DNA from: a bacterium
GTDB taxonomy: Bacteria; Eisenbacteria; RBG-16-71-46; CAIMUX01
Direction of reading: 5' to 3'
DNA: 64,000 nucleotides
Assembly: GCA_030431975.1 (NCBI GenBank)
Contig: JAUIHP010000011.1
Location: 1 to 64,000 of the forward strand
The notes under the pieces were generated by a model. That model had not been told where the DNA came from and did not search any database. It saw only the letters and a program-made list of their open reading frames with translations. Shown here in pieces: positions 32,603 through 43,692 of this stretch. The translations under genes were made by a program, and so were the position numbers. Every line of letters starts with the position of its first letter. Within the stretch, counting starts at the first letter, position 1.

Positions 32603-33047
32603 TTGACTCCAATGCCTGTAGGTCGATCGCGCTGAAGCGCCACAGAAAGTGATCGCAAGTCCAAGGTTCCGTCCAATGGTGACCCAAGTATCCACTCTCC
32701 GTCACCCCTTGTACGTTGGCCGCATCCGCCTACTGCGGAGCGTGACCCCGTTGGATGGCTGAAGTCTGAGAAGAGGTTTCAGCCGGTTGAGACGGGCAAC
32801 GTCGGGAGGGACGATGTATAACGTTCTGACGGCGATGAGTTCCAATGCCACGGCACTCTCATGTGCCGTCCTGGTCGAACATTTAGATCGGCATGCTTCG
32901 GGTGCTGCCCTACCTCCTCACCGAGGCAGCGAACCTGAACTGGTTGCCGAGGGAGTTCCGACCGTCGTGATTCCCTCCGTCGCGCTGCCCTCGTATGGGG
33001 ATTCCCGGATATCCATACATCGAAATATCCCGATACTTAGAAGCGTT
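32603..33047. other. Divergent intergenic region, 445 bases
   Basis: Lies between the beta-helix gene and the sulfur locus. A frame in phase with the ArsR gene extends back to an ATG at 32814 behind GGAGGG, which would add 78 residues of unrecognised sequence; the short start at 33048 is preferred. The last 45 bases before 33048 are AT-rich against the GC-rich background and contain the inverted repeat noted separately. Confidence 0.45.
33007..33030. promoter_or_regulatory. Candidate ArsR operator / promoter
   Basis: GGATAT (33007-33012) and ATATCC (33025-33030) form an inverted repeat with a 12-base spacer in an AT-rich patch 18-41 bases before the ArsR start. ATATCC also recurs as a direct repeat 18 bases apart. 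Self-regulation at such a site is typical for ArsR-family repressors. Confidence 0.4.
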
Positions 33048-33377
33048 ATGAAAACGAAAGCACCGACAACAACAGAACTCTCCCCCGAAGCCCTGGCCGC
33101 CGCGGCCCACTGCCTTCGCACCCTTGCCCACCCGGTTCGGCTACGCATCGTCGAGCTGTTGCTGGAAGACGAGCACACCGTCGGTGAGCTCGCGGAAGCC
33201 TGCCACGTCTCCCAATCGGTGGCTTCGACTCACCTCGGCGTCATGCGGGACCGTGGGATTCTCGAATCCGAGCGCAGAGGACGCAGGATCTACTACTTCG
33301 TCCACGAGCACGCGGCGACCGGAATCATGGAATGTATTCGCGCCCGATTCGGGCAACAGAACCGAGGCCGACAATGA
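33048..33377 (+). CDS. ArsR-family transcriptional repressor of the sulfur locus
   Basis: Winged-helix regulator of 109 residues: LRTLAHPVRLRIVELLLEDE, then the recognition helix region (VGELAEACHVSQSVASTHLG) and the wing (RGILESERRGRRIYYFV). Cys residues occur at about positions 16 (AAHCLRT), 51 (EACHVS) and 97 (MECI). Sulfide- or persulfide-sensing ArsR proteins (BigR/SqrR) use a Cys pair, but the positions here cannot be matched with certainty. It overlaps the octaheme cytochrome gene by ATGA (33374-33377), so it heads the operon. Start 33048 gives the usual family length; a longer start at 32814 is possible. Confidence 0.88.
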   Translation: MKTKAPTTTELSPEALAAAAHCLRTLAHPVRLRIVELLLEDEHTVGELAEACHVSQSVASTHLGVMRDRGILESERRGRRIYYFVHEHAATGIMECIRARFGQQNRGRQ

Positions 33378-34834
33378 CTTCTCGAGCGCGTGGTGGAATC
33401 GGCATCTTCCTGCTCGTGGCACTGGCGCTTCTCATTCCGTTGATGTGGCTGAACCGAGATCGGTCGGCACCTGCCGACGATCCCTGGGCTCAGGTTCCCC
33501 CAAGACTTCCGCAGACCGACCACACCGCGTTGCTTCCCGGCCCTTTTGCGGACGGACCTTCCGTCACCAAAGCCTGCCTCGAATGTCACGAAGACGCCGC
33601 GCACGAAGTCATGCAAACCGCGCATTGGACCTGGGAAAGCGAACCCGTCCCGGTCGACGGTCACGAAGGACTCGTCAAGCTGGGAAAGAAGAACGTCGTC
33701 AACAACTTCTGTATCAGCGTGCAAAGCAACTGGATGGGCTGCACGTCGTGTCATGCAGGGTACGGCTGGAAGGACGAGAACTTCGACTTCTCCGCAGAGG
33801 AGCAGGTCGACTGCCTGGTTTGTCATGACCACTCCGGTGGCTACGCGAAGACGAAGGCAGGACTTCCCGCCGACGGTGTCGATCTCGCCGCAGCAGCACA
33901 AAGCGTAGGGGGACCGACGCGCGACACGTGTGGCGGCTGCCACTTCAAAGGCGGAGGCGGCGACGCTGTCAAACACGGCGACATGGACACCAGCCTTCTC
34001 AATCCGCCCGCCCGGGTCGACGTTCATATGGGGAAGCATGGCCTGGTCTGCACCGACTGCCACCGCACGCAGGATCACCAGATTGCCGGGCGTTCGATCA
34101 GCGTCAGCGTCGACGATGCGAACCGCGCCAGCTGCACGGACTGTCACCAGGCCCGCCCCCATGCAGACGAACGTCTCGACCTTCACGCGGACGCCGTCGC
34201 CTGTCAGACCTGTCACATTCCCGAGGTGGCTCTTCGCGAGATGACCAAGGTCCACTGGGACTGGTCGCAAGCCGGACAGGACCGGGAGAACGCCGACCCG
34301 CACGAGTACTTGAAGAAGAAGGGTGAGTTCGTCATGGAGAGCCACCTCGCGCCGGAGTACGCCTGGTTCGACGGTACGGCGGGCCGCTATCTACTCGGTG
34401 ACCGAATCACCGAAACGGGACCGACGGAGCTCAACCCGCCGCACGGAAGCATACGGGACGAGGGCGCCAAGATCTGGCCGTTCAAGATCCATCGAGGCCG
34501 CCAGGTCTTCGACGAGGTCCACAGAACGCTTCTCGTTCCACAAACGGTCGGCCCCGGCGCCTACTGGGAAACCTTCGACTGGGACAGCGCACTGCGTATG
34601 GGATCAAAAGCCTCCAAGCTCGACTACAGCGGTAGCTACGGCTTTACGGAGACGGCAATGCACTGGCCGTTGACGCACATGGTCGCACCGAAAGAAGACG
34701 CACTCGGCTGTGCGGACTGCCACTCCGACGACGGAGTTCTGGATTGGGAAGCCTTGGGCTACCCGGGAGATCCGATCGAGTGGGGAGGCCGTCGGCAACT
34801 GCAGACCGCAGGAGTGGGAGGAGGTTCGAAATGA
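33374..34834 (+). CDS. Octaheme c-type cytochrome, tetrathionate reductase (OTR) family
   Basis: Periplasmic multiheme enzyme of 486 residues. The N-terminal helix (GIFLLVALALLIPLMWL) is a signal or anchor. Eight CxxCH sites occur: Cys68, 123, 147, 186, 226, 254, 277 and one near 451 (CADCH). Long heme-free stretches between the seventh and eighth, and NNFCISVQSNWMGCTSCHAG around the second, match the OTR family of Shewanella, which reduces tetrathionate, nitrite and hydroxylamine in vitro. ATG at 33374 overlaps the ArsR stop, and its own stop overlaps the next start, so expression is coupled. The direction of electron flow (reduction or sulfur oxidation) cannot be read from sequence. Confidence 0.92.
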   Translation: MTSRARGGIGIFLLVALALLIPLMWLNRDRSAPADDPWAQVPPRLPQTDHTALLPGPFADGPSVTKACLECHEDAAHEVMQTAHWTWESEPVPVDGHEGLVKLGKKNVVNNFCISVQSNWMGCTSCHAGYGWKDENFDFSAEEQVDCLVCHDHSGGYAKTKAGLPADGVDLAAAAQSVGGPTRDTCGGCHFKGGGGDAVKHGDMDTSLLNPPARVDVHMGKHGLVCTDCHRTQDHQIAGRSISVSVDDANRASCTDCHQARPHADERLDLHADAVACQTCHIPEVALREMTKVHWDWSQAGQDRENADPHEYLKKKGEFVMESHLAPEYAWFDGTAGRYLLGDRITETGPTELNPPHGSIRDEGAKIWPFKIHRGRQVFDEVHRTLLVPQTVGPGAYWETFDWDSALRMGSKASKLDYSGSYGFTETAMHWPLTHMVAPKEDALGCADCHSDDGVLDWEALGYPGDPIEWGGRRQLQTAGVGGGSK

Positions 34835-37443
34835 AACGCGCTTTCCTGACTCGAACCGATTCCTCACACGCTTTCACCGAAAGCAATCTTGGAGTCCCTT
34901 TCTTTGCCGCGTTGATCATTATTGTGGCGATGCACGTCTCGGCTGCAACGAGTCCGGCACGGGCCGGCGAGTTGCATCCGACCTTTCCGTTACTCGATGA
35001 TTCGGGACAGTCCGTTCTCGAGACCGGCCGGCCGGTTTCCTCCGACGTTACCTGCGGCAGCTGTCACGATACGGGATTCATTCGACAACACAACAGTCAC
35101 GCCGAAGTTGGAATCGACTGCTTTCTCTGTCACGTCCCGGGTGCGAATGACGAGGCGCGACGGCGATCGCTTCAGTCCGCGGCACCAGCCTGGTCCGCAA
35201 CCGCGACCCTTTTGGGAACCGGAATCGTGGAGCGGAGCATCGCCAACGAATCGCACACGGAACGAACTGCGGCGGGCTTCACCTACAACCCCTCGGCCTT
35301 CGACGAAGACGGCCACGTCCGCGCTTCCCACTTGACGCTTCAGGATCCGAAGAGCGAAGCCTGTGGCTCGTGTCACGGAGCTGTCCACGTCGACATGAAG
35401 GAAGCCTTCACCTGGGCAAACCTCGACGAGTCCGCAGGCGTGATGGATCCGGAGTGGACCAGTCTCCGCACCGGCCAGGTTTACTCGGCACAACCCATGC
35501 GCGAGTCGGGACTGAATCTACACGAGAAGTCCCGACTGACCCGAAGCTGGGACGCGCATGCGGAGCGGCAACTCGAGTGCGTCGACTGTCACTACTCGGT
35601 CAACAACCCGATCTATCGCCGCGCGTCCAAAGCCCGTCCGGCGCACCTTCGCTTCGATGCCCGGCGAATCGAACTCGGCGAGTACCTGAAACGTCCGAGC
35701 CACGTACTTGCCCACGGCGTCGAACTCGAGGCTCTGACCGATGACGGCGAGCACAACGTACCTACCCAGCGTGACGATCGCGGGCGCAGCGTTTCGACCC
35801 TGGCCGAAGACCCCGATGGGCTCGGCATGCCGGGCAGCATGCGCGACTGTGCGACCTGTCACGATCCATCCGCTGGGCACGACTGGTTGCCGTACGCAGA
35901 TCGCCACTTCGCAACGGTCTCCTGCGCTTCGTGTCATATCCCGACGATGCACGCCCCGGCACTGCGCACGGTCGACGCAACGCTCGTCGATGCGAACGGA
36001 TCGCCACGCATCGAACTGCGTGCGGTCGAGGGAGACGCCTCGCAGAGATGGGGCTTCGACATCTCCAGGGACATGGCTGCTACCTACGTCACCGGATTCG
36101 AACCGACACTACTGCCACGAAAGGAAGCGGACGGAAAGGAACGCCTCGCGCCGCACAACCTCGTCACGACCTACCGTTGGGTGACCGGGGACTCCCGGAC
36201 CGAGATCTCACCCGAGACGCTCGCCGAAGTCTTCTACGACGCACACGGACGACCTCGAGATTCACTGATCCGTGTCTTCGACAGCAACGGCGACGGGAGC
36301 TGCTCCGAGGAGGAGCTGCGACTGTCAACGACAGATCAGGTCGAGAGCGTACGAAGCCTTCTGATTGACGCCGGCTTCCATAACCCCCAAATCGAAGCGG
36401 TGACCGAGCCGTTTGCGATCACCCACGGAGTCGCCGGCGGCCAGTGGGCACTTCGAGACTGCGCGCAATGTCACAGTGACAACTCACGCGTCGATCGCAG
36501 TGTCCTTCTTGCCGCGTCTTCCCCGCCTGGGGTGACACCGAGGTTCTCCGGTGACCGAAGGACAACCTTGGCGGGAAGCATCCACCGCGCTCAGCATCCG
36601 GAGGACACCATCTACTCGCCAAGCCCGGCGCCGAGTCTCTACGTGCTTGGGAAACATGCCAACCTCGCCGCAGACCGAGTCGGGCTGGTTGCAGTGCTTC
36701 TCACCGTTCTCGGCATTGCCGTGCACAGCCTCCTTCGCCTGGCTCGCTCGCGGCGAACCGCCGGTTCAGAAGTTTCCAACGCCGGGGGCGCGGCCGGCGA
36801 AGTCCACACGGTCTACATGTACAACGCCTACGAACGCTTTTGGCACTGGCTGCAGGCCGCCGCGATCTTCGTCCTGCTGCTGACAGGACTCGAGATTCAC
36901 TTCCCCGGAAACTTCCGGGTCGTCGGCTTTGATCTCGCGGTGCGTTCCCACAACATCATGGGCTTCGTCGTTGTCATCAACGCCGCATTGTCCGCCTTCT
37001 ATCACTTCGCCAGCGGAGAGATCCGGCAGTTCGTGCCCGAACCACAAGGCTTCTTCCGTGGTGCGATTCTGCAGATCCGTTACTACCTTCGCGGCATCTT
37101 CCGCGGGGATCCGCACCCGTTCGAGAAGCATCCGGGACGGAAGATGAACGTGCTGCAGCAGGTCACGTATCTCGCGATCCTCAACCTCCTCCTTCCGCTG
37201 CAGATCGGAACCGGGCTACTTATGTGGGGAGCACAGCGTTGGAGTTCGGTGGACAGCGTTTTTGGCGGGCTTGGAGTGCTGGGTCCGATCCACGTTCTTG
37301 GGGCCTGGCTCTTCGCAGCGTTTCTCGTCGTTCACATCTATCTGACTACAACCGGGCCGACACCGACTGCCTATGTCAAGGCGATGGTGACGGGCTGGGA
37401 GGACGAACCTGCCTCGCACGTTGCAGGGGGAAGCTCGAAATGA
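34831..37443 (+). CDS. Heptaheme cytochrome c fused to a b-type membrane cytochrome
   Basis: Membrane electron-transfer protein of 870 residues. It has a signal helix (22-38) and seven CxxCH sites (Cys75, 97, 178, 250, 340, 365, 544). An EF-hand-like calcium loop is at 484-495 (DSNGDGSCSEEE). A membrane helix is near 612-636. A cytochrome b561/hydrogenase-type diheme domain spans about 660-850 (YNAYERFWHWLQAAAIFVLL...LAVRSHNIMG...GPIHVLGAWLFAAFLVVHIY), with His residues placed as heme b ligands. It could pass electrons between quinone and the octaheme enzyme. ATG at 34831 overlaps the previous stop by ATGA and has GGAGGAGG upstream. It shares a 4-base overlap with the following transporter gene. 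Confidence 0.92.
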   Translation: MKRAFLTRTDSSHAFTESNLGVPFFAALIIIVAMHVSAATSPARAGELHPTFPLLDDSGQSVLETGRPVSSDVTCGSCHDTGFIRQHNSHAEVGIDCFLCHVPGANDEARRRSLQSAAPAWSATATLLGTGIVERSIANESHTERTAAGFTYNPSAFDEDGHVRASHLTLQDPKSEACGSCHGAVHVDMKEAFTWANLDESAGVMDPEWTSLRTGQVYSAQPMRESGLNLHEKSRLTRSWDAHAERQLECVDCHYSVNNPIYRRASKARPAHLRFDARRIELGEYLKRPSHVLAHGVELEALTDDGEHNVPTQRDDRGRSVSTLAEDPDGLGMPGSMRDCATCHDPSAGHDWLPYADRHFATVSCASCHIPTMHAPALRTVDATLVDANGSPRIELRAVEGDASQRWGFDISRDMAATYVTGFEPTLLPRKEADGKERLAPHNLVTTYRWVTGDSRTEISPETLAEVFYDAHGRPRDSLIRVFDSNGDGSCSEEELRLSTTDQVESVRSLLIDAGFHNPQIEAVTEPFAITHGVAGGQWALRDCAQCHSDNSRVDRSVLLAASSPPGVTPRFSGDRRTTLAGSIHRAQHPEDTIYSPSPAPSLYVLGKHANLAADRVGLVAVLLTVLGIAVHSLLRLARSRRTAGSEVSNAGGAAGEVHTVYMYNAYERFWHWLQAAAIFVLLLTGLEIHFPGNFRVVGFDLAVRSHNIMGFVVVINAALSAFYHFASGEIRQFVPEPQGFFRGAILQIRYYLRGIFRGDPHPFEKHPGRKMNVLQQVTYLAILNLLLPLQIGTGLLMWGAQRWSSVDSVFGGLGVLGPIHVLGAWLFAAFLVVHIYLTTTGPTPTAYVKAMVTGWEDEPASHVAGGSSK

Positions 37444-37991
37444 AGACACTCTCGACACAGGGAGCCAACGGCGTTGGTCACCATGGCCGCCCCTATCTGG
37501 ATCCGTACCTGGCCGGCGCTTTGCTTGGACTGGTTCTATTCGCCGCGTTCTTCGTGACGGGAAACGGACTCGGTGCCTCCGGCGGAATCGCCCGCGTTCT
37601 TGTCGCCGCGGAAGATCAGATCGTTCCCGAGCACGTCGACCGAACGGCCTACCTTCTGAACATGGCCGGTGGAGAGACCGATCCGCTCGATCACTGGATC
37701 GTGGTCGTCACCGTCGGAACGATCCTTGGTGGTTTTCTTTCCGGGCTGCTTCACCACCGACTCCATCCGGAAACGGCTCGCGGCCCCCGGATTTCTGCCC
37801 GCACACGTTGGATCTTCGCGCTGCTCGGCGGCGTCCTGATGGGCTACGGCGCACGCCTGGCCCGTGGCTGCACCTCCGGACAGGCTTTGTCGGGCGGAGC
37901 CGTTCTGTCGGTGGGCAGTTGGGCATTCATGTTCGCCGTCTTTGCGGGCGGCTATGCCTTGGCCTGGTTCGTCCGAAAGCTTTGGACCTGA
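37440..37991 (+). CDS. YeeE/YedE (TsuA-like) sulfur transport protein, short form
   Basis: Inner-membrane protein of 183 residues with about four helices. The family moves thiosulfate or related sulfur anions through a channel lined by conserved Cys residues. Here the signature GYGARLARGCTSGQALSG is at 136-152 with Cys144. The protein is about half the size of a full YeeE, so it probably pairs with the next gene's product. ATG at 37440 overlaps the preceding cytochrome stop. It lies between the cytochromes and the second YeeE-type protein, which supports a role in handling the sulfur substrate or product. Confidence 0.9.
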   Translation: MKTLSTQGANGVGHHGRPYLDPYLAGALLGLVLFAAFFVTGNGLGASGGIARVLVAAEDQIVPEHVDRTAYLLNMAGGETDPLDHWIVVVTVGTILGGFLSGLLHHRLHPETARGPRISARTRWIFALLGGVLMGYGARLARGCTSGQALSGGAVLSVGSWAFMFAVFAGGYALAWFVRKLWT

Positions 37992-38072
37992 TCGAGCGGA
38001 CATTCCCAACTCAAGCAGGCTCATGTGAGCTGTTGCGATCGACGAAACAGTGAAGAGAGAAGAGAGAAGAAG

Positions 38073-39320
38073 ATGGCACCCTTCGCACTCACAGATCAGT
38101 TCGGCAAAGTGATCGCCTATCTTATCTACTTCGGCATCGGCGTGAGCTTCGGTTCCGTTCTCGAGATGGCGGGGTTTGCGGACTCGCGGCGACTCGCCGG
38201 TCAGTTCTACTTCCGCAACATCACCGTTCTCAAGGTCATGTTCACTGCGATCGTCACAGCCATGGTGTTGGTCTTTCTGTCTTCCGCACTGGGGTGGCTC
38301 GATTACCCTCGCGTCTACGTCAACCCGACGTATCTCGTACCGGGCATCATCGGCGGACTGATCATGGGCGTCGGCTTCATCCTCGGCGGCTTCTGTCCGG
38401 GAACCTCCCTCGTGGCCGTGTCCAATCTCAGAATCGATGCACTCTTCTTCTTTGTCGGTGTCAGCGCCGGCGTCTTCGCTTTCGGTGAGTCGGTGGGACG
38501 CTTCACGGAGTTTTTCTATTCGAGTTCCATGGGACGTTTCACGTTGCCCGAATGGTTGGGAGCACCGACCGGAATCGTCGTTGTCGGTGTTGTCGCCATG
38601 GCGCTCTTCATGTTCTGGGGTGGAGAGAAGCTGGAGCGAAAGTTTGGCTCGCCCCAGGAATACGCTGCGGTTCGGGTCCTTCCAGTCCGGATTCGCTACG
38701 GCGCATCCGCGGGTCTCATGGGATTGGCCCTGCTCGCCTTGATTCTCGGGCAACCGTCCGCCGAGGACCGCTGGCAACGAGCCGGCACAGAAACCCACGC
38801 TCTCCTGGTAGAGCGCGGCGCATTCATCCACCCCGGCGAGCTGTTACAGCTCTCTCAGAACCGGCAGATCAAACTACTCATCCTCGACGTGAGAAGCGAA
38901 GCCGAGTACAACGTGTTTCATCTCACGGACTCGAGACGTGTCGAGATGGAAGAGATCGATGAAGGCATTCTCAGTCTGGAACTTCTAAACGCAGATGCCA
39001 ACACCGTGACGGTGCTGCTGTCGAACGCCGAGGAGCGGGCAACTCGCGCTTGGCAACGGCTGAAGGCGGATCGCGTCCTCAATACCTATGTTCTCGACTC
39101 CGGAATCAACGGCTGGGTGGATCTCTTCGGCTCGCAGGCACTCGCACCACGCGCCGGATCTAAGCCGGTCGGCACGATGAGGCATGCCTTCCCCGCCGCA
39201 CTCGGCGCCGCGCAGCCAGGCGCCGACCTCGATGTGTTGAGTCATGAGCACCGGCAACTCAGCTTCGAACCCAAGGTCAAACTGCAGACGAAGAAGAAGC
39301 TTGGGGGCGGGTGCGGGTAG
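38073..39320 (+). CDS. YeeE/YedE transporter fused to an inactive rhodanese-like domain, C-terminal GGGCG
   Basis: Inner-membrane protein of 415 residues. Residues 10-228 hold about six helices with the family motif GGFCPGTSLVAVSNLR (Cys108). Residues about 250-355 look like a rhodanese domain (LLILDVRSEAEYNVFHL...YVLDSGINGWVD), but the loop that normally carries the catalytic Cys reads VTVLLSNAEERA, with Ser317. A 45-residue tail ends KKKLGGGCG, with Cys414 second from the end, resembling the GGCGG swinging arm of SoxY. ATG at 38073 follows a GA-rich ribosome-binding region. The 81-base gap after the short YeeE gene suggests the same operon. A sulfur-carrier role for the tail is inference. 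Confidence 0.9.
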   Translation: MAPFALTDQFGKVIAYLIYFGIGVSFGSVLEMAGFADSRRLAGQFYFRNITVLKVMFTAIVTAMVLVFLSSALGWLDYPRVYVNPTYLVPGIIGGLIMGVGFILGGFCPGTSLVAVSNLRIDALFFFVGVSAGVFAFGESVGRFTEFFYSSSMGRFTLPEWLGAPTGIVVVGVVAMALFMFWGGEKLERKFGSPQEYAAVRVLPVRIRYGASAGLMGLALLALILGQPSAEDRWQRAGTETHALLVERGAFIHPGELLQLSQNRQIKLLILDVRSEAEYNVFHLTDSRRVEMEEIDEGILSLELLNADANTVTVLLSNAEERATRAWQRLKADRVLNTYVLDSGINGWVDLFGSQALAPRAGSKPVGTMRHAFPAALGAAQPGADLDVLSHEHRQLSFEPKVKLQTKKKLGGGCG

Positions 39321-39345: not shown

Positions 39346-40014
39346 TCAGGGGCGCGGGACTTCGACCCAGAAGTATCCGCGCAGATCTCCCGCGACATAG
39401 CCCGTTGCTTCGTCGTTGGGATAGTGGTCGGCCAGTGCCGTCTGGACTTCCGGCATCAGGGACTCCTTGGCCCCGTGACAAACTTCACACGGAGGCATGA
39501 GTCGAATCGGTGTGAGCACGCCGAGAGCGCCGTTTTCCAGCTCTACCGAAACCTCTTCACCCTTCCTGCTGTCGACGAAGTCCCTGGCCCAATCCGGTGG
39601 TTGGTTGGCGGCGTTGCGAAGTTGTAACGACGTCCGTCCGATGCGCACGCCTTTCTCCGTCCCGACCTTCTGAGCCAGAGCCGGCGCGGACGTTTTGCAC
39701 ACGTCGATCGCTCCGGCCGGACCGTCTTCCTGCATAGCTGTCGTCAGTTCGCCGAGGAGGGACTGGAACAGAGCCGTGCGGGCATCGGCCGCCAGCGCCT
39801 TTTGCTGCTCGAGAACGGAGGCGCCGTCGCCCTCTTCACCGGCCCCATCTGAAGCGGAACCGGCTTCTGTTTCGGAGTTCGACGGGGAGTCCGCAGAATC
39901 CTTTCCCGAACAACCCACCATCGCCGACATCGCTACACCCGCCGTCAGGATCGCTCCGAAAAGTAGCGACGATGCTGGCCGGATCCGTAGTCTCATTCCG
40001 TAATTCATTCTCAT
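39346..40014 (-). CDS. DUF3365 (Tll0287-like) monoheme lipoprotein
   Basis: Lipoprotein of 222 residues: signal peptide ending MVGC, an acidic Ser/Glu/Gly linker, then the DUF3365 pattern (AIDVCKTSAPALAQKVG, VRIGRTSLQLRNAANQPPDW, GALGVLTPIRLMPPCEVCHG). It has one CxxCH heme site and the conserved family Cys. The fold is a PAS-like heme sensor or electron carrier. ATG at 40014 has GGAGG 5 bases upstream; ATG 40008 is an alternative. It converges on the sulfur operon from the opposite strand, so co-regulation is possible but not shown. Confidence 0.87.
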   Translation of the reverse strand: MRMNYGMRLRIRPASSLLFGAILTAGVAMSAMVGCSGKDSADSPSNSETEAGSASDGAGEEGDGASVLEQQKALAADARTALFQSLLGELTTAMQEDGPAGAIDVCKTSAPALAQKVGTEKGVRIGRTSLQLRNAANQPPDWARDFVDSRKGEEVSVELENGALGVLTPIRLMPPCEVCHGAKESLMPEVQTALADHYPNDEATGYVAGDLRGYFWVEVPRP

Positions 40015-40216
40015 TCCGCCCTCCATGGCATGTTCATCTTCCGGCCTTGTCCCATTAGCAAACCTCCACCCCACGATTCGTTTCGCCTTGCGTCCGGCCA
40101 GACTCCGAATTAGCTTCTAACACACTTGAAATCAGTCACTTCGAGATGGCGGCGAAGCGCGCCGGGACTTGAGTGAACGCCGCGGTTTCGAGTTTGGTTG
40201 CCGCAAGGAGATTCCC

Positions 40217-41800
40217 ATGAAAAGCTTTCGATCCTTCCGTCCCTCTGGCGATCACGGTCTCGCTGTCGAGGGTCGGCCCGAGGCATTCCTTCGCTTTTGC
40301 CGGCGCGCCGTCCCTGGTATCGCGTTCGCATTGGCTCTGACTGGACCCATCGGTTGTGTCGATGACAAGGATGACACAGATGGCCTACCTACGGAGCCCG
40401 CGGATACCACTCCGGTGCCGACGCGCTACGGTGCCCTTGGCAACAGCCTGACCGCCGGCTTCATCAACGGAGGCCTCGTTCAGGGAGGGCAGGTCGCAAG
40501 CTATCCCGTGCTCGTCGCGAACCAGGCGGGATGGAACATCAACAACGAGATCGGCGCAACAACGCTGCCGCTCATCCTCGATCCCGGCATCGGCTCGACG
40601 GTGGTCGACGGCATCCCCCAAAGTGCGATCTTCGTCAATGAACAGGGCGGCCTTTCGACGACGCCGGTCAATCCGCTGGAGCTGCTTCATCCGAATCTGA
40701 GTCGTCTTCCAAGGCCGTACGACAATCTCGGGATTCCCGGCGCCACGACGCTCGACCTGCTCCAGGCGACCGACGCGACGACCAGCCAGTCACCCGGCAA
40801 TCTCTACTTCGATCTGATCCTTCGCAACGCCAATCTGCCCCCCGGCAACTGGACGGCGCTAGACGCGATGACCGCGAGAAATCCGAACGCGCTGAGCATG
40901 TGGATCGGCTCGAATGACATCCTGGGCGGAGCCCTCGGCGGCAACCCGGTTGTCGGGCAGAACATCACTCCACCGCAAGCTTGGGAGCAGATCTTCCTCG
41001 GCGTCGTTGCCCGCATCGACGCGATGAACGCGAGCTACGTTGCTCTGGCCGGTGTCGCAAACGTGGCAGACATTCCGTACGTCACGACGATCCCGGCGAA
41101 CCTGGGCACGGAGAAGATGCCGCTGCGTTTCAACACAGAGGAAGCGGATGTCGAGTTCGTTCTTCTTCCGTTCGGTTTGGCCGCACTTTCACAAGAGGAC
41201 CCTGCCGGTTGGTTCTTCTCCCATGTTCAGGGCTTCGGCACCAGCATCGTTCCGTCGCACTGGACGCTGACGGCATCAGAAGTCGCCGACATCGAGAACA
41301 CGGCACGCGCCTACAACGTCATCATCGAGCGTGAATGCCAGGCGCGCGGGTGGGCCTATGTCGACGCTTTGAGCGAGCTCGCAGCCCTCGAAAAGGATCC
41401 ACGGATCCTCACCGACGCAGATCCTCAGGACGGCACTCCCGACCAGTTCACCGAGGTCAATGGTTACTTCCCCTGGTTCCCACAGATCTCCGCGCAGGGA
41501 TTCAACCTGATCCGCAATGCTCGTTCGGCATTCAGTCTGGACGGTGTGCATCCCAGCGAAGTGGGACAGGCTCTGACCGCCAACGCCTTCATCCGCGCGT
41601 TCAACGATGCCTACGGCCTCGGGATCCAGGAGATCCCACTCGCCGTCATCAACAACAACGTCGGATTCGAGAACGCACCCGGTTTCGCCCGAGTTTCGGG
41701 CTCGGCAAACGCGGAAGACCGGCCGGCCGGACCGTTTGTCGATACGGGTGTGACTGAAGTCATGGAAGCGCTTCCCAGCCTGATGGGAACGGTCCGCTGA
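40217..41800 (+). CDS. SGNH/GDSL-type lipoprotein hydrolase
   Basis: Predicted lipase or esterase of 527 residues. The signal region ends PIGC (Cys47). GALGNSLTAGF places the nucleophile at Ser77. GIPGATTLDLL (block II-like), WIGSNDILGG (block III, GxND) and SLDGVHPSEVG (block V, Asp and His of the triad, near 443-446) follow. Long insertions enlarge the fold beyond the usual ~200-residue core. AAGGAG lies 6 bases before the ATG. It is the first of five co-oriented genes that end with an RND transporter, so it may act on a lipid or ester handled by that system. Confidence 0.9.
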   Translation: MKSFRSFRPSGDHGLAVEGRPEAFLRFCRRAVPGIAFALALTGPIGCVDDKDDTDGLPTEPADTTPVPTRYGALGNSLTAGFINGGLVQGGQVASYPVLVANQAGWNINNEIGATTLPLILDPGIGSTVVDGIPQSAIFVNEQGGLSTTPVNPLELLHPNLSRLPRPYDNLGIPGATTLDLLQATDATTSQSPGNLYFDLILRNANLPPGNWTALDAMTARNPNALSMWIGSNDILGGALGGNPVVGQNITPPQAWEQIFLGVVARIDAMNASYVALAGVANVADIPYVTTIPANLGTEKMPLRFNTEEADVEFVLLPFGLAALSQEDPAGWFFSHVQGFGTSIVPSHWTLTASEVADIENTARAYNVIIERECQARGWAYVDALSELAALEKDPRILTDADPQDGTPDQFTEVNGYFPWFPQISAQGFNLIRNARSAFSLDGVHPSEVGQALTANAFIRAFNDAYGLGIQEIPLAVINNNVGFENAPGFARVSGSANAEDRPAGPFVDTGVTEVMEALPSLMGTVR

Positions 41801-41874
41801 TGTTGTCGGCAGAACACGGAACGACTTTGCCGCACCCCTCACACAGGACAACCCGAGGGAAGGAGACTGGCCCT

Positions 41875-43692
41875 ATGGGAACGCGAATCTGCTCGAGGAT
41901 CTCCACGGAACTGGGAGTCCTCCTCGCAGCCGCCGCTTTGACCGGCATGGCCTCAGCCTTGTTCGTAAGCGACGCAACGGCGGTCGAATTTACGGCCGCC
42001 GAAGGTGAGTTCACCGGGAGCCTGGACGCCTCGGTCGACATCGGCGCTGCGTTTCGGGTTTCCGATCGGGACAGCGACCTCGTCGGAACGCAAAACGGCG
42101 GCGAGGCCCACTCCGTCAATGGAGACAACGGAAACCTGAACTACGACTCCGGAGACATGACGTCCGCAAGCGGGAAGCTCACCTACGAGTTCCTCGCCAA
42201 CTACAAGTACCTGTCGGCCTTCAGCCGCGGGTTCTATCTGTACGACAACGTCATCATGAACTCCGACACCAAGCGGACGGAGCTCAGCTCCCGCGCCGAG
42301 GAAGAGCTGGGCGACGACTTCACCCTGCTCGACGCCTACCTCGCCCTGGACCTGCCCGTCGGCAGCAGCTATCTGACGGTCAAGGGCGGAAACATGGTTC
42401 TCAGTTGGGGTGAAAGCACTTTCATTCAGAACGGAATCAATCGCGTCAATCCCGTCAACGTGGCCAAGCTTCGGAACGCCGGCGCCGAGATCAAAGACGC
42501 GCTCAACGCGGTTCCGATGATCGACGTCGCCTTCGACATCAACGAGCGGTTCTCGGCAGAAGGGTTCTACCAATTCGAATGGGACCACACCGAGGTAGAA
42601 CCGGAAGGGACCTTCTTCTCGACGAATGACTTTGCCAGCCCGGGCGGCGAGTACGTCATGCTCGGATTTGGAGCCGAAGGAATCGCCGACAATCCGCCGG
42701 ACGCCGGACAGAACATCCCGGTCGGAAGCGCCGTTCGTCGCCAGCATGACCGGAACGCCTCGAATGACGGGCAGTTCGGCGCGGCCGTTCGTTGGTTCGA
42801 GCCGAACCTCAACGACACGGAATTGGGCTTCTACTTCCTAAGGCTGCACTCGCGTCTGCCGGTTCTCAGTGCAATCACCGGTACGGAAGCGGGACTGGCC
42901 AACTCCAACTACGCCGCCACGGCGCGATACTTCCGTGAGTTCCCGGAAGACGTCGACACCTACGGATTCAGTTTCAACACCGAGGTTCAGGCCATCGGAT
43001 CCGCGGTCCAAGGCGAGGTTTCCTACCACAAGGACCAGCCGCTTCAGATCGACGACGTCGAGCTGTTGTTTGCCGCACTCTCGCCGCTCAACGTCACCAC
43101 ACCCGACGGCACCGGCATCTTCGAGCAAAACCAGATCGGCGACTTCGGTTTCGAAGAGGAGATCACGGGCTGGCGCAAGAAGGACGTTCTGCAGGCGCAG
43201 ATGACGTTGACGCGTCTCTTCGGGCCGCGTTTCGGCGCCGACCAGTTTGTCGCCCTCGGTGAAATCGGTGGAACTTTTGTCCAGGACCTCGAAAGCCAGG
43301 ACGAGCTGCGCTACGAAGGTCCCGGAACCTTCACCGGCGGAAATGAGTTCTTTACTACGGTAGGGGTACAACCTGAGACGGCCTCGGAAGACGGCTTTGC
43401 CGACGAGACTTCATGGGGCTACCGGATGGTCCTCCGCGGCGATTACAACGGCGCGCTCGGCCCGGTCAATCTGCAACCGCAGCTGGCCTGGTCGCATGAT
43501 GTCAGTGGAACCACTCCGAGCCCGATCGTCAACTTCATCGAAGGACGAAAGACGATCACGGCGTCTCTTGCCGCAAGCTACCTCTTTCAATGGAACTTCC
43601 GGCTCTCTTACACCAACTCCTTCGGCGGGGACGCCTACAATCTGCTGAAGGACCGAGACTTTGTCGCACTGACCCTCGGGTATTCCTACTAG
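41875..43692 (+). CDS. DUF1302 outer-membrane family protein
   Basis: Large beta-rich protein of 605 residues with a signal peptide (MGTRICSRIS...DATAVEF). The DUF1302 pattern is clear: an N-terminal GSLDASVDIGAAFRVSDRD, NLNYDSGDMTSASGKLTYEF, a central LTVKGGNMVLSWGESTF.QNGINRVNP block and a final LSYTNSFGGDAYNLLKDRDF...LGYSY. The family is a predicted outer-membrane barrel, always exported, role unproven. GGGAAGGAG lies about 10 bases before the ATG. It is directly followed by a DUF1329 gene, its regular partner. Confidence 0.92.
   Translation: MGTRICSRISTELGVLLAAAALTGMASALFVSDATAVEFTAAEGEFTGSLDASVDIGAAFRVSDRDSDLVGTQNGGEAHSVNGDNGNLNYDSGDMTSASGKLTYEFLANYKYLSAFSRGFYLYDNVIMNSDTKRTELSSRAEEELGDDFTLLDAYLALDLPVGSSYLTVKGGNMVLSWGESTFIQNGINRVNPVNVAKLRNAGAEIKDALNAVPMIDVAFDINERFSAEGFYQFEWDHTEVEPEGTFFSTNDFASPGGEYVMLGFGAEGIADNPPDAGQNIPVGSAVRRQHDRNASNDGQFGAAVRWFEPNLNDTELGFYFLRLHSRLPVLSAITGTEAGLANSNYAATARYFREFPEDVDTYGFSFNTEVQAIGSAVQGEVSYHKDQPLQIDDVELLFAALSPLNVTTPDGTGIFEQNQIGDFGFEEEITGWRKKDVLQAQMTLTRLFGPRFGADQFVALGEIGGTFVQDLESQDELRYEGPGTFTGGNEFFTTVGVQPETASEDGFADETSWGYRMVLRGDYNGALGPVNLQPQLAWSHDVSGTTPSPIVNFIEGRKTITASLAASYLFQWNFRLSYTNSFGGDAYNLLKDRDFVALTLGYSY

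Follow-up and report, generated by a model that had tools for sequence, protein, structure and literature searches.

We analysed a stretch of 64,000 nucleotides (the window; positions 1 to 64,000 of the forward strand of contig JAUIHP010000011.1, assembly GCA_030431975.1) from a bacterium of the Eisenbacteria. Five genes on its + strand (33048-39320) are proposed to encode a quinol-driven, extracytoplasmic reductase of sulfur compounds together with its own split YeeE transporter, which bears a probable cysteine arm; we put the probability of this reading at about 0.55. In this order the genes code for an ArsR regulator, an octaheme cytochrome of the OTR family, a heptaheme cytochrome fused to cytochrome b561, a short YeeE protein and a YeeE-rhodanese fusion protein. 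The first four are joined by exact ATGA overlaps at 33374, 34831 and 37440, and 81 bp separate the end of the short YeeE gene from the start of the YeeE-rhodanese gene (38073). An earlier note on this DNA had described the five genes, their positions and the three overlaps, all of which are borne out by the coordinates of the open reading frames.

Conservation of the gene order

Using the heptaheme-b561 fusion as query, 84,980 species genomes were scanned, which yielded 38 loci. Most belong to the Anaerolineales, with further loci from KSB1 (L010), Eisenbacteria (L017), a deltaproteobacterium (L040) and an acidobacterium (L038, where the contig begins within the fusion gene). In nearly all of the 38 loci with enough flanking sequence the genes for OTR, fusion, YeeE and YeeE-rhodanese follow each other in the same order and on the same strand (tblastn). 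In addition, OTR loci were drawn by family search from Chloroflexota, Pseudomonadota, Bacteroidota and Desulfobacterota, and about 100 neighbourhoods were read. Chloroflexota OTR genes above the cut-off are surrounded by the full set in all ten loci read around the family match, usually with ArsR in front. The full set is present in two Pseudomonadota loci, while most of the others pair OTR with a separate cytochrome b. In Bacteroidota, OTR either stands alone or, in a supported clade, is accompanied by a separate cytochrome b together with YeeE and YeeE-rhodanese, and the Desulfobacterota loci read contain OTR with cytochrome b or OTR alone, with no YeeE-rhodanese. Altogether, the order OTR-fusion-YeeE-YeeE/rhodanese was found in about 40 loci from at least six phyla (Chloroflexota, KSB1, Eisenbacteria, Acidobacteria, a deltaproteobacterium and Pseudomonadota).

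Presence across genomes follows the same pattern. Among 251 Chloroflexota genomes, a full-length YeeE-rhodanese and an OTR above the cut-off occur in exactly the same 11; among 296 Bacteroidota genomes a full-length YeeE-rhodanese match occurs in 27, and 23 of these are among the 41 genomes with OTR. In the OTR tree, the proteins encoded beside fusion and YeeE fall into one group of 45 rows (Shimodaira-Hasegawa-like approximate likelihood ratio test, SH-aLRT, 99), and the Bacteroidota OTRs encoded beside cytochrome b and YeeE form a separate clade (SH-aLRT 98). The link between OTR and YeeE thus arose at least twice, or it is old and was often lost. The earlier note had proposed that the five products act together and had made this dependent on a conserved gene order. 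The order is conserved across phyla; together with the identical distribution in Chloroflexota and the presence of the same YeeE pair in at least two OTR clades, this makes joint action the most likely explanation, and we consider it very probable that the genes form one functional unit.

The octaheme cytochrome

The OTR gene (33374-34834, +) encodes a protein of 486 amino acids with an N-terminal signal or anchor and eight CXXCH motifs. It belongs to family TIGR04315 (569.7 bits, curated cut-off 375) and matches the Shewanella oneidensis OTR structure (PDB 1sp3) along its length (E 6.7e-143). The pocket residues N61, C64, D150 and K153 (1sp3 numbering) are all present, and the motifs NNFC and GGDAVKH are identical in both proteins. 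According to the alignment, Cys113 (codon 33710-33712, +) corresponds to Cys64 and Lys200 (codon 33971-33973, +) to Lys153.

About twenty Desulfobacterota OTR genes were flagged in the family search as having an in-frame TGA. In the ten that were read (L156, L159, L160, L164, L167, L181, L187, L188, L189 and L190) a single TGA lies exactly at the Cys64 position, in the motif NNFU, NSFU or NNYU, and the remainder of the gene is intact. Judging from the sequences, this codon encodes selenocysteine (Sec) at the pocket position. TIGR04315 has been named as a GenBank-annotated selenoprotein in a 2026 review, in which the motif is not stated (PMC13188914). The exchange of Cys and Sec at this position suggests a catalytic thiol or thiolate in OTR, as would be expected for chemistry on S-S bonds.

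In vitro, OTR reduces tetrathionate, nitrite and hydroxylamine (PMC4484225). Tetrathionate reduction by a recombinant OTR from Beggiatoaceae reaches 93 umol/min/mg and is faster than nitrite reduction (PMC6449678), and in the marine acidobacterium Ca. Sulfomarinibacter otr transcripts increase 36-fold with tetrathionate (PMC8528874). Three Desulfobacterota loci (L175-L177) encode OTR-like cytochromes that have 12 heme motifs and a length of about 1100 amino acids; PsrA/PsrB-like genes come immediately after.

The heptaheme-b561 fusion

The next gene (34831-37443, +) encodes a protein of 870 amino acids. Its heptaheme part (35053-36474, +) has seven CXXCH motifs, a number also found in nearly all full-length homologues, and is followed by a cytochrome b561 domain (36820-37395, +; PF01292, 84.9 bits, cut-off 30.1). 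These counts, together with the family matches, agree with the eight-heme OTR and the seven-heme protein fused to cytochrome b of the earlier note, and its view of the fused cytochrome b as the quinone-facing link is plausible. The best NCBIfam match of this domain is thiosulfate reductase cytochrome b (NF011582); with 118.9 bits against a cut-off of 204 it is not assigned to this PhsC type. Between hemes 6 and 7 (about residues 478-497 in the window protein), many fusion proteins have a DxNGDG motif resembling an EF-hand, a possible calcium site.

One split transporter instead of two

The short YeeE (37440-37991, +; 183 amino acids) is the C-terminal half of a YeeE/TsuA transporter and resembles PmpA; the YeeE-rhodanese (38073-39320, +; 415 amino acids) consists of an N-terminal YeeE half resembling PmpB, an extra transmembrane helix, a rhodanese-like domain and a cysteine tail. 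The earlier note had counted two sulfur transporters. The short protein covers positions 177-309 of PF04143 (Sulf_transp) and residues 239-327 of StYeeE (PDB 6leo), the fused protein positions 12-192 and residues 8-138, respectively. Because the matched parts are complementary, the two genes are the halves of one PmpAB-type transporter. Each half has kept one transport cysteine: Cys144 of the short protein, equivalent to Cys293 of StYeeE, is present in 54/54 sequences, and Cys108 of YeeE-rhodanese (codon 38394-38396, +), equivalent to Cys91, in 48/48 homologues.

PmpA and PmpB have been described as YeeE halves (PMC11582611) and share with the window pair the two-protein architecture and the equivalents of Cys91 and Cys293. 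Compared with PmpB, the window N-half is extended by two transmembrane helices and a rhodanese-like domain, and its C-terminus is an invariant GG(G)C(G) tail. YeeE is reported to hand thiosulfate along its cysteines (PMC11073785), and the window pair shares family and the idea of a cysteine relay with TsuA-TsuB and StYeeE-YeeD (6leo, 8k1r), but lacks the third cysteine C22 and a YeeD/TusA partner in the operon and has an extra cysteine predicted on the outer side. It is also not a full-length TsuA thiosulfate transporter, which is one chain of about 340 amino acids with three conserved cysteines; here the chain is split and there is no Cys at the C22 position.

A rhodanese-like domain with an invariant cysteine tail

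Across 48 full-length YeeE-rhodanese proteins, cysteine is invariant at two positions only, Cys108 and Cys414. The latter is located in the C-terminal GGGCG tail (39303-39317, +), and all 48 proteins end in GG(G)C(G). The rhodanese-like domain (38832-39119, +; PF00581) has lost its catalytic-loop cysteine, which is present in 0/48 homologues, so that an active rhodanese sulfurtransferase was rejected. In the structure model, helices at residues 12-32, 51-73, 85-104, 121-148, 166-191 and 205-225 are followed by a rhodanese fold and a disordered, flexible tail. A fold search with this model returned mainly rhodanese folds, none below E 0.001; its transporter part was identified from sequence. 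The loop that follows helix 1 is the counterpart of the C22 region of StYeeE, which is cytoplasmic, so that after six membrane crossings the C-terminal domain would lie outside. A loop rich in K and R ahead of the sixth helix (38685-38747, +) agrees with this placement. In Bacteroidota, where the rhodanese part often exists as a separate protein, an anchor helix at its N-terminus likewise predicts an outside location. Domain and tail thus probably lie outside the membrane, beside OTR.

A glycine-flanked C-terminal cysteine is also found in the extracytoplasmic sulfur carrier SoxY (PF13501). Apart from the tail and its predicted location there is no resemblance: PF13501 is not among the families reported for the window protein, which has an unrelated fold, is membrane-tethered and has no SoxZ, making this analogy and not homology. 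A search for SoxY in the window's own genome found none, and control genomes gave no match either. One Chloroflexota locus (L211, genome G155) is a broken copy of the operon, in which pieces of the fusion, YeeE and YeeE-rhodanese genes lie in shifted frames and the GGGCG tail can still be read.

The transporter module also accompanies PsrABC

Bacteroidota modules without an adjoining OTR lie directly downstream of a molybdoenzyme operon in 12/12 readable loci. This operon encodes a catalytic subunit (best NCBIfam match PhsA), a four-cluster iron-sulfur protein and NrfD/PsrC; PsrA of locus L207 matches Thermus Psr (2vpw) with E 4e-219. In L198-L208, L216 and L217, PsrABC is followed by the YeeE C-half, the YeeE N-half and a membrane-anchored rhodanese without the loop cysteine, ending in a K-rich EGC/GGC. 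The last-residue Cys is the sole Cys of the protein (or of the soluble part of the fused L199 protein) in 13/14 of the Psr-linked modules. Two Chloroflexota loci have a plain PmpAB flanked by ArsR and PsrAB, and PsrABC was not present within the stretch read in loci with OTR and YeeE.

One transporter module is therefore paired with two unrelated quinol-linked extracytoplasmic sulfur reductases. Psr and Phs act on polysulfide or thiosulfate, and since the same module serves OTR, sulfur is likely the common substrate class. This favours sulfur over nitrogen chemistry for OTRs of the window type.

The regulator and neighbouring genes

The first gene (33048-33377, +) encodes an ArsR/SmtB-family repressor of 109 amino acids (NF033788, 79.3 bits), presumably the regulator of the operon; about 20 Chloroflexota loci also begin with ArsR. 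The nearest structure to the window protein is BigR (3pqj). At what we take to be the positions of the two BigR cysteines the window protein has E and G. A BigR-type sensor of sulfane sulfur was rejected, as both cysteine positions differ and NF040642 gave 62.7 bits against a cut-off of 155. An inverted repeat upstream (32949-32977, 79% complementary) is unconvincing as an operator.

A convergent gene for a Tll0287-like protein (PF11845) with one CXXCH adjoins the operon end (39346-40074, -). Genes for a GDSL-like lipase and a DUF1302 protein follow with a one-base overlap (40169-43692, +) and seem unrelated to the operon.

Discussion

We infer the sulfur substrate from gene context and the literature, and likewise the direction, the function of the arm and the regulation. 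The b561 domain would take electrons from the quinone pool, and the heptaheme domain would relay them to OTR. There, the pocket cysteine next to the active heme may help to cleave an S-S bond. The substrate would most likely be tetrathionate, reduced to thiosulfate, or else carrier-bound sulfane sulfur. The two YeeE proteins together would form one transporter for thiosulfate or sulfane sulfur, presumably an importer. Outside the membrane, the dead rhodanese domain would bear the GGGCG tail, whose cysteine could act as a tethered arm that carries sulfur between OTR and the mouth of the transporter, a job comparable to that of SoxY or Wolinella Sud, and ArsR would control the set. Of the route in the earlier note (quinone pool, periplasmic redox, sulfur uptake), the quinone link is plausible and the sulfur context holds, the two transporters do not, and compound and electron direction are deduced. 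Sulfur chemistry is likely and reduction is favoured over oxidation, while the chances that tetrathionate is the main substrate are about even.

Several points weigh against this reading. The AlphaFold model of the heptaheme part has a mean predicted local distance difference test score (pLDDT) of 62, and no fold could be read from it. Nitrite and hydroxylamine, too, are reduced by OTR in vitro (PMC4484225). YeeE is absent beside most OTR genes of Pseudomonadota and Desulfobacterota, so that OTR in general can do without it. The co-occurrence values (Fisher p about 2e-19 each for Chloroflexota and Bacteroidota) ignore shared ancestry. The topology of the tail is a prediction, and the tail could instead serve disulfide, metal or dimer formation; whether Cys414 is a sulfur carrier is evenly balanced.

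The direction of electron flow might be reversed, so that OTR oxidises thiosulfate or arm-bound sulfur, electrons enter the quinone pool via the fusion, and the YeeE pair imports sulfane sulfur for oxidation. In Hyphomicrobium, the YeeE-like SoxT1A has its role in sulfur oxidation (PMC11582611), carriers with a cysteine arm, SoxY for example, are part of oxidation systems, and multiheme enzymes can run reversibly. However, the other partner of the module, PsrABC/PhsABC, is of the reductase type, tested OTR relatives reduce tetrathionate (PMC6449678), tetrathionate induces otr in an acidobacterium, and a tetrathionate/thiosulfate potential of about +198 mV favours reduction driven by menaquinol (quoted in PMC8528874). 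We regard oxidation as unlikely.

The place of ArsR at the head of the operon in the window and in the Chloroflexota loci would also suit a non-respiratory defence against reactive sulfur, with ArsR as the sensor of sulfane sulfur, reduction of polythionates or persulfides by OTR on the outside, and export or clearance of thiosulfate by the YeeE pair. In Serratia, PmpAB is under an ArsR regulator too, which we count in its favour. Such a defence is improbable, since a quinone-linked b561 domain with a heptaheme relay would be costly for detoxification, the regulator is without the BigR cysteine pair and a persulfide dioxygenase is not among the recognised neighbours. Least probable is an ammonifying or detoxifying nitrite/hydroxylamine reductase that shares an operon with a sulfur assimilation transporter by chance: Shewanella OTR reduces both compounds in vitro (PMC4484225), but the exact co-occurrence with the sulfur transporter, the PsrABC swap and the Cys or Sec kept in the pocket, which would be needless for plain nitrite reduction, speak against it.

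Compared with known systems, a quinol-driven sulfur reductase with a transporter would combine familiar parts in another way. The window OTR shares eight hemes, fold family and pocket residues with the Shewanella protein, which is reported to draw electrons from CymA via STC (PMC4484225), but is wired to the heptaheme-b561 fusion and to the split YeeE with its cysteine tail. In PsrABC/PhsABC with the Sud rhodanese of Wolinella (PDB 1qxn), too, both the quinol-linked sulfur reductase and its rhodanese partner are extracytoplasmic; in the window OTR takes the place of the molybdoenzyme, the loop cysteine is lost and the tail cysteine is present. OTR with cytochrome b, including a cytochrome b561 beside OTR (PMC7509429), and PmpAB are already known. 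In the open-access literature searched, we found no earlier description of the heptaheme-b561 fusion, of a link between OTR and YeeE, of the cysteine tail, or of a module swap with YeeE, rhodanese and Psr together. Tentatively, the dead rhodanese on a split YeeE, outside the membrane and with an invariant cysteine arm, may be a new kind of membrane-tethered sulfur carrier that links OTR- and PsrABC-type quinol-driven reductases to sulfur import.

The annotation of OTR as tetrathionate reductase goes back to in vitro work; its physiological substrate is disputed, nitrite being the other candidate. The strictly linked transporter, the PsrABC neighbour where OTR is absent and the conservation of Cys or Sec in the pocket make a sulfur role of OTR directly testable. 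The invariant cysteine tail suggests a way in which sulfur could change hands between a reductase outside the membrane and a transporter within it without being set free; this would be relevant to sulfur cycling by many Chloroflexota and Bacteroidota that are uncultured.

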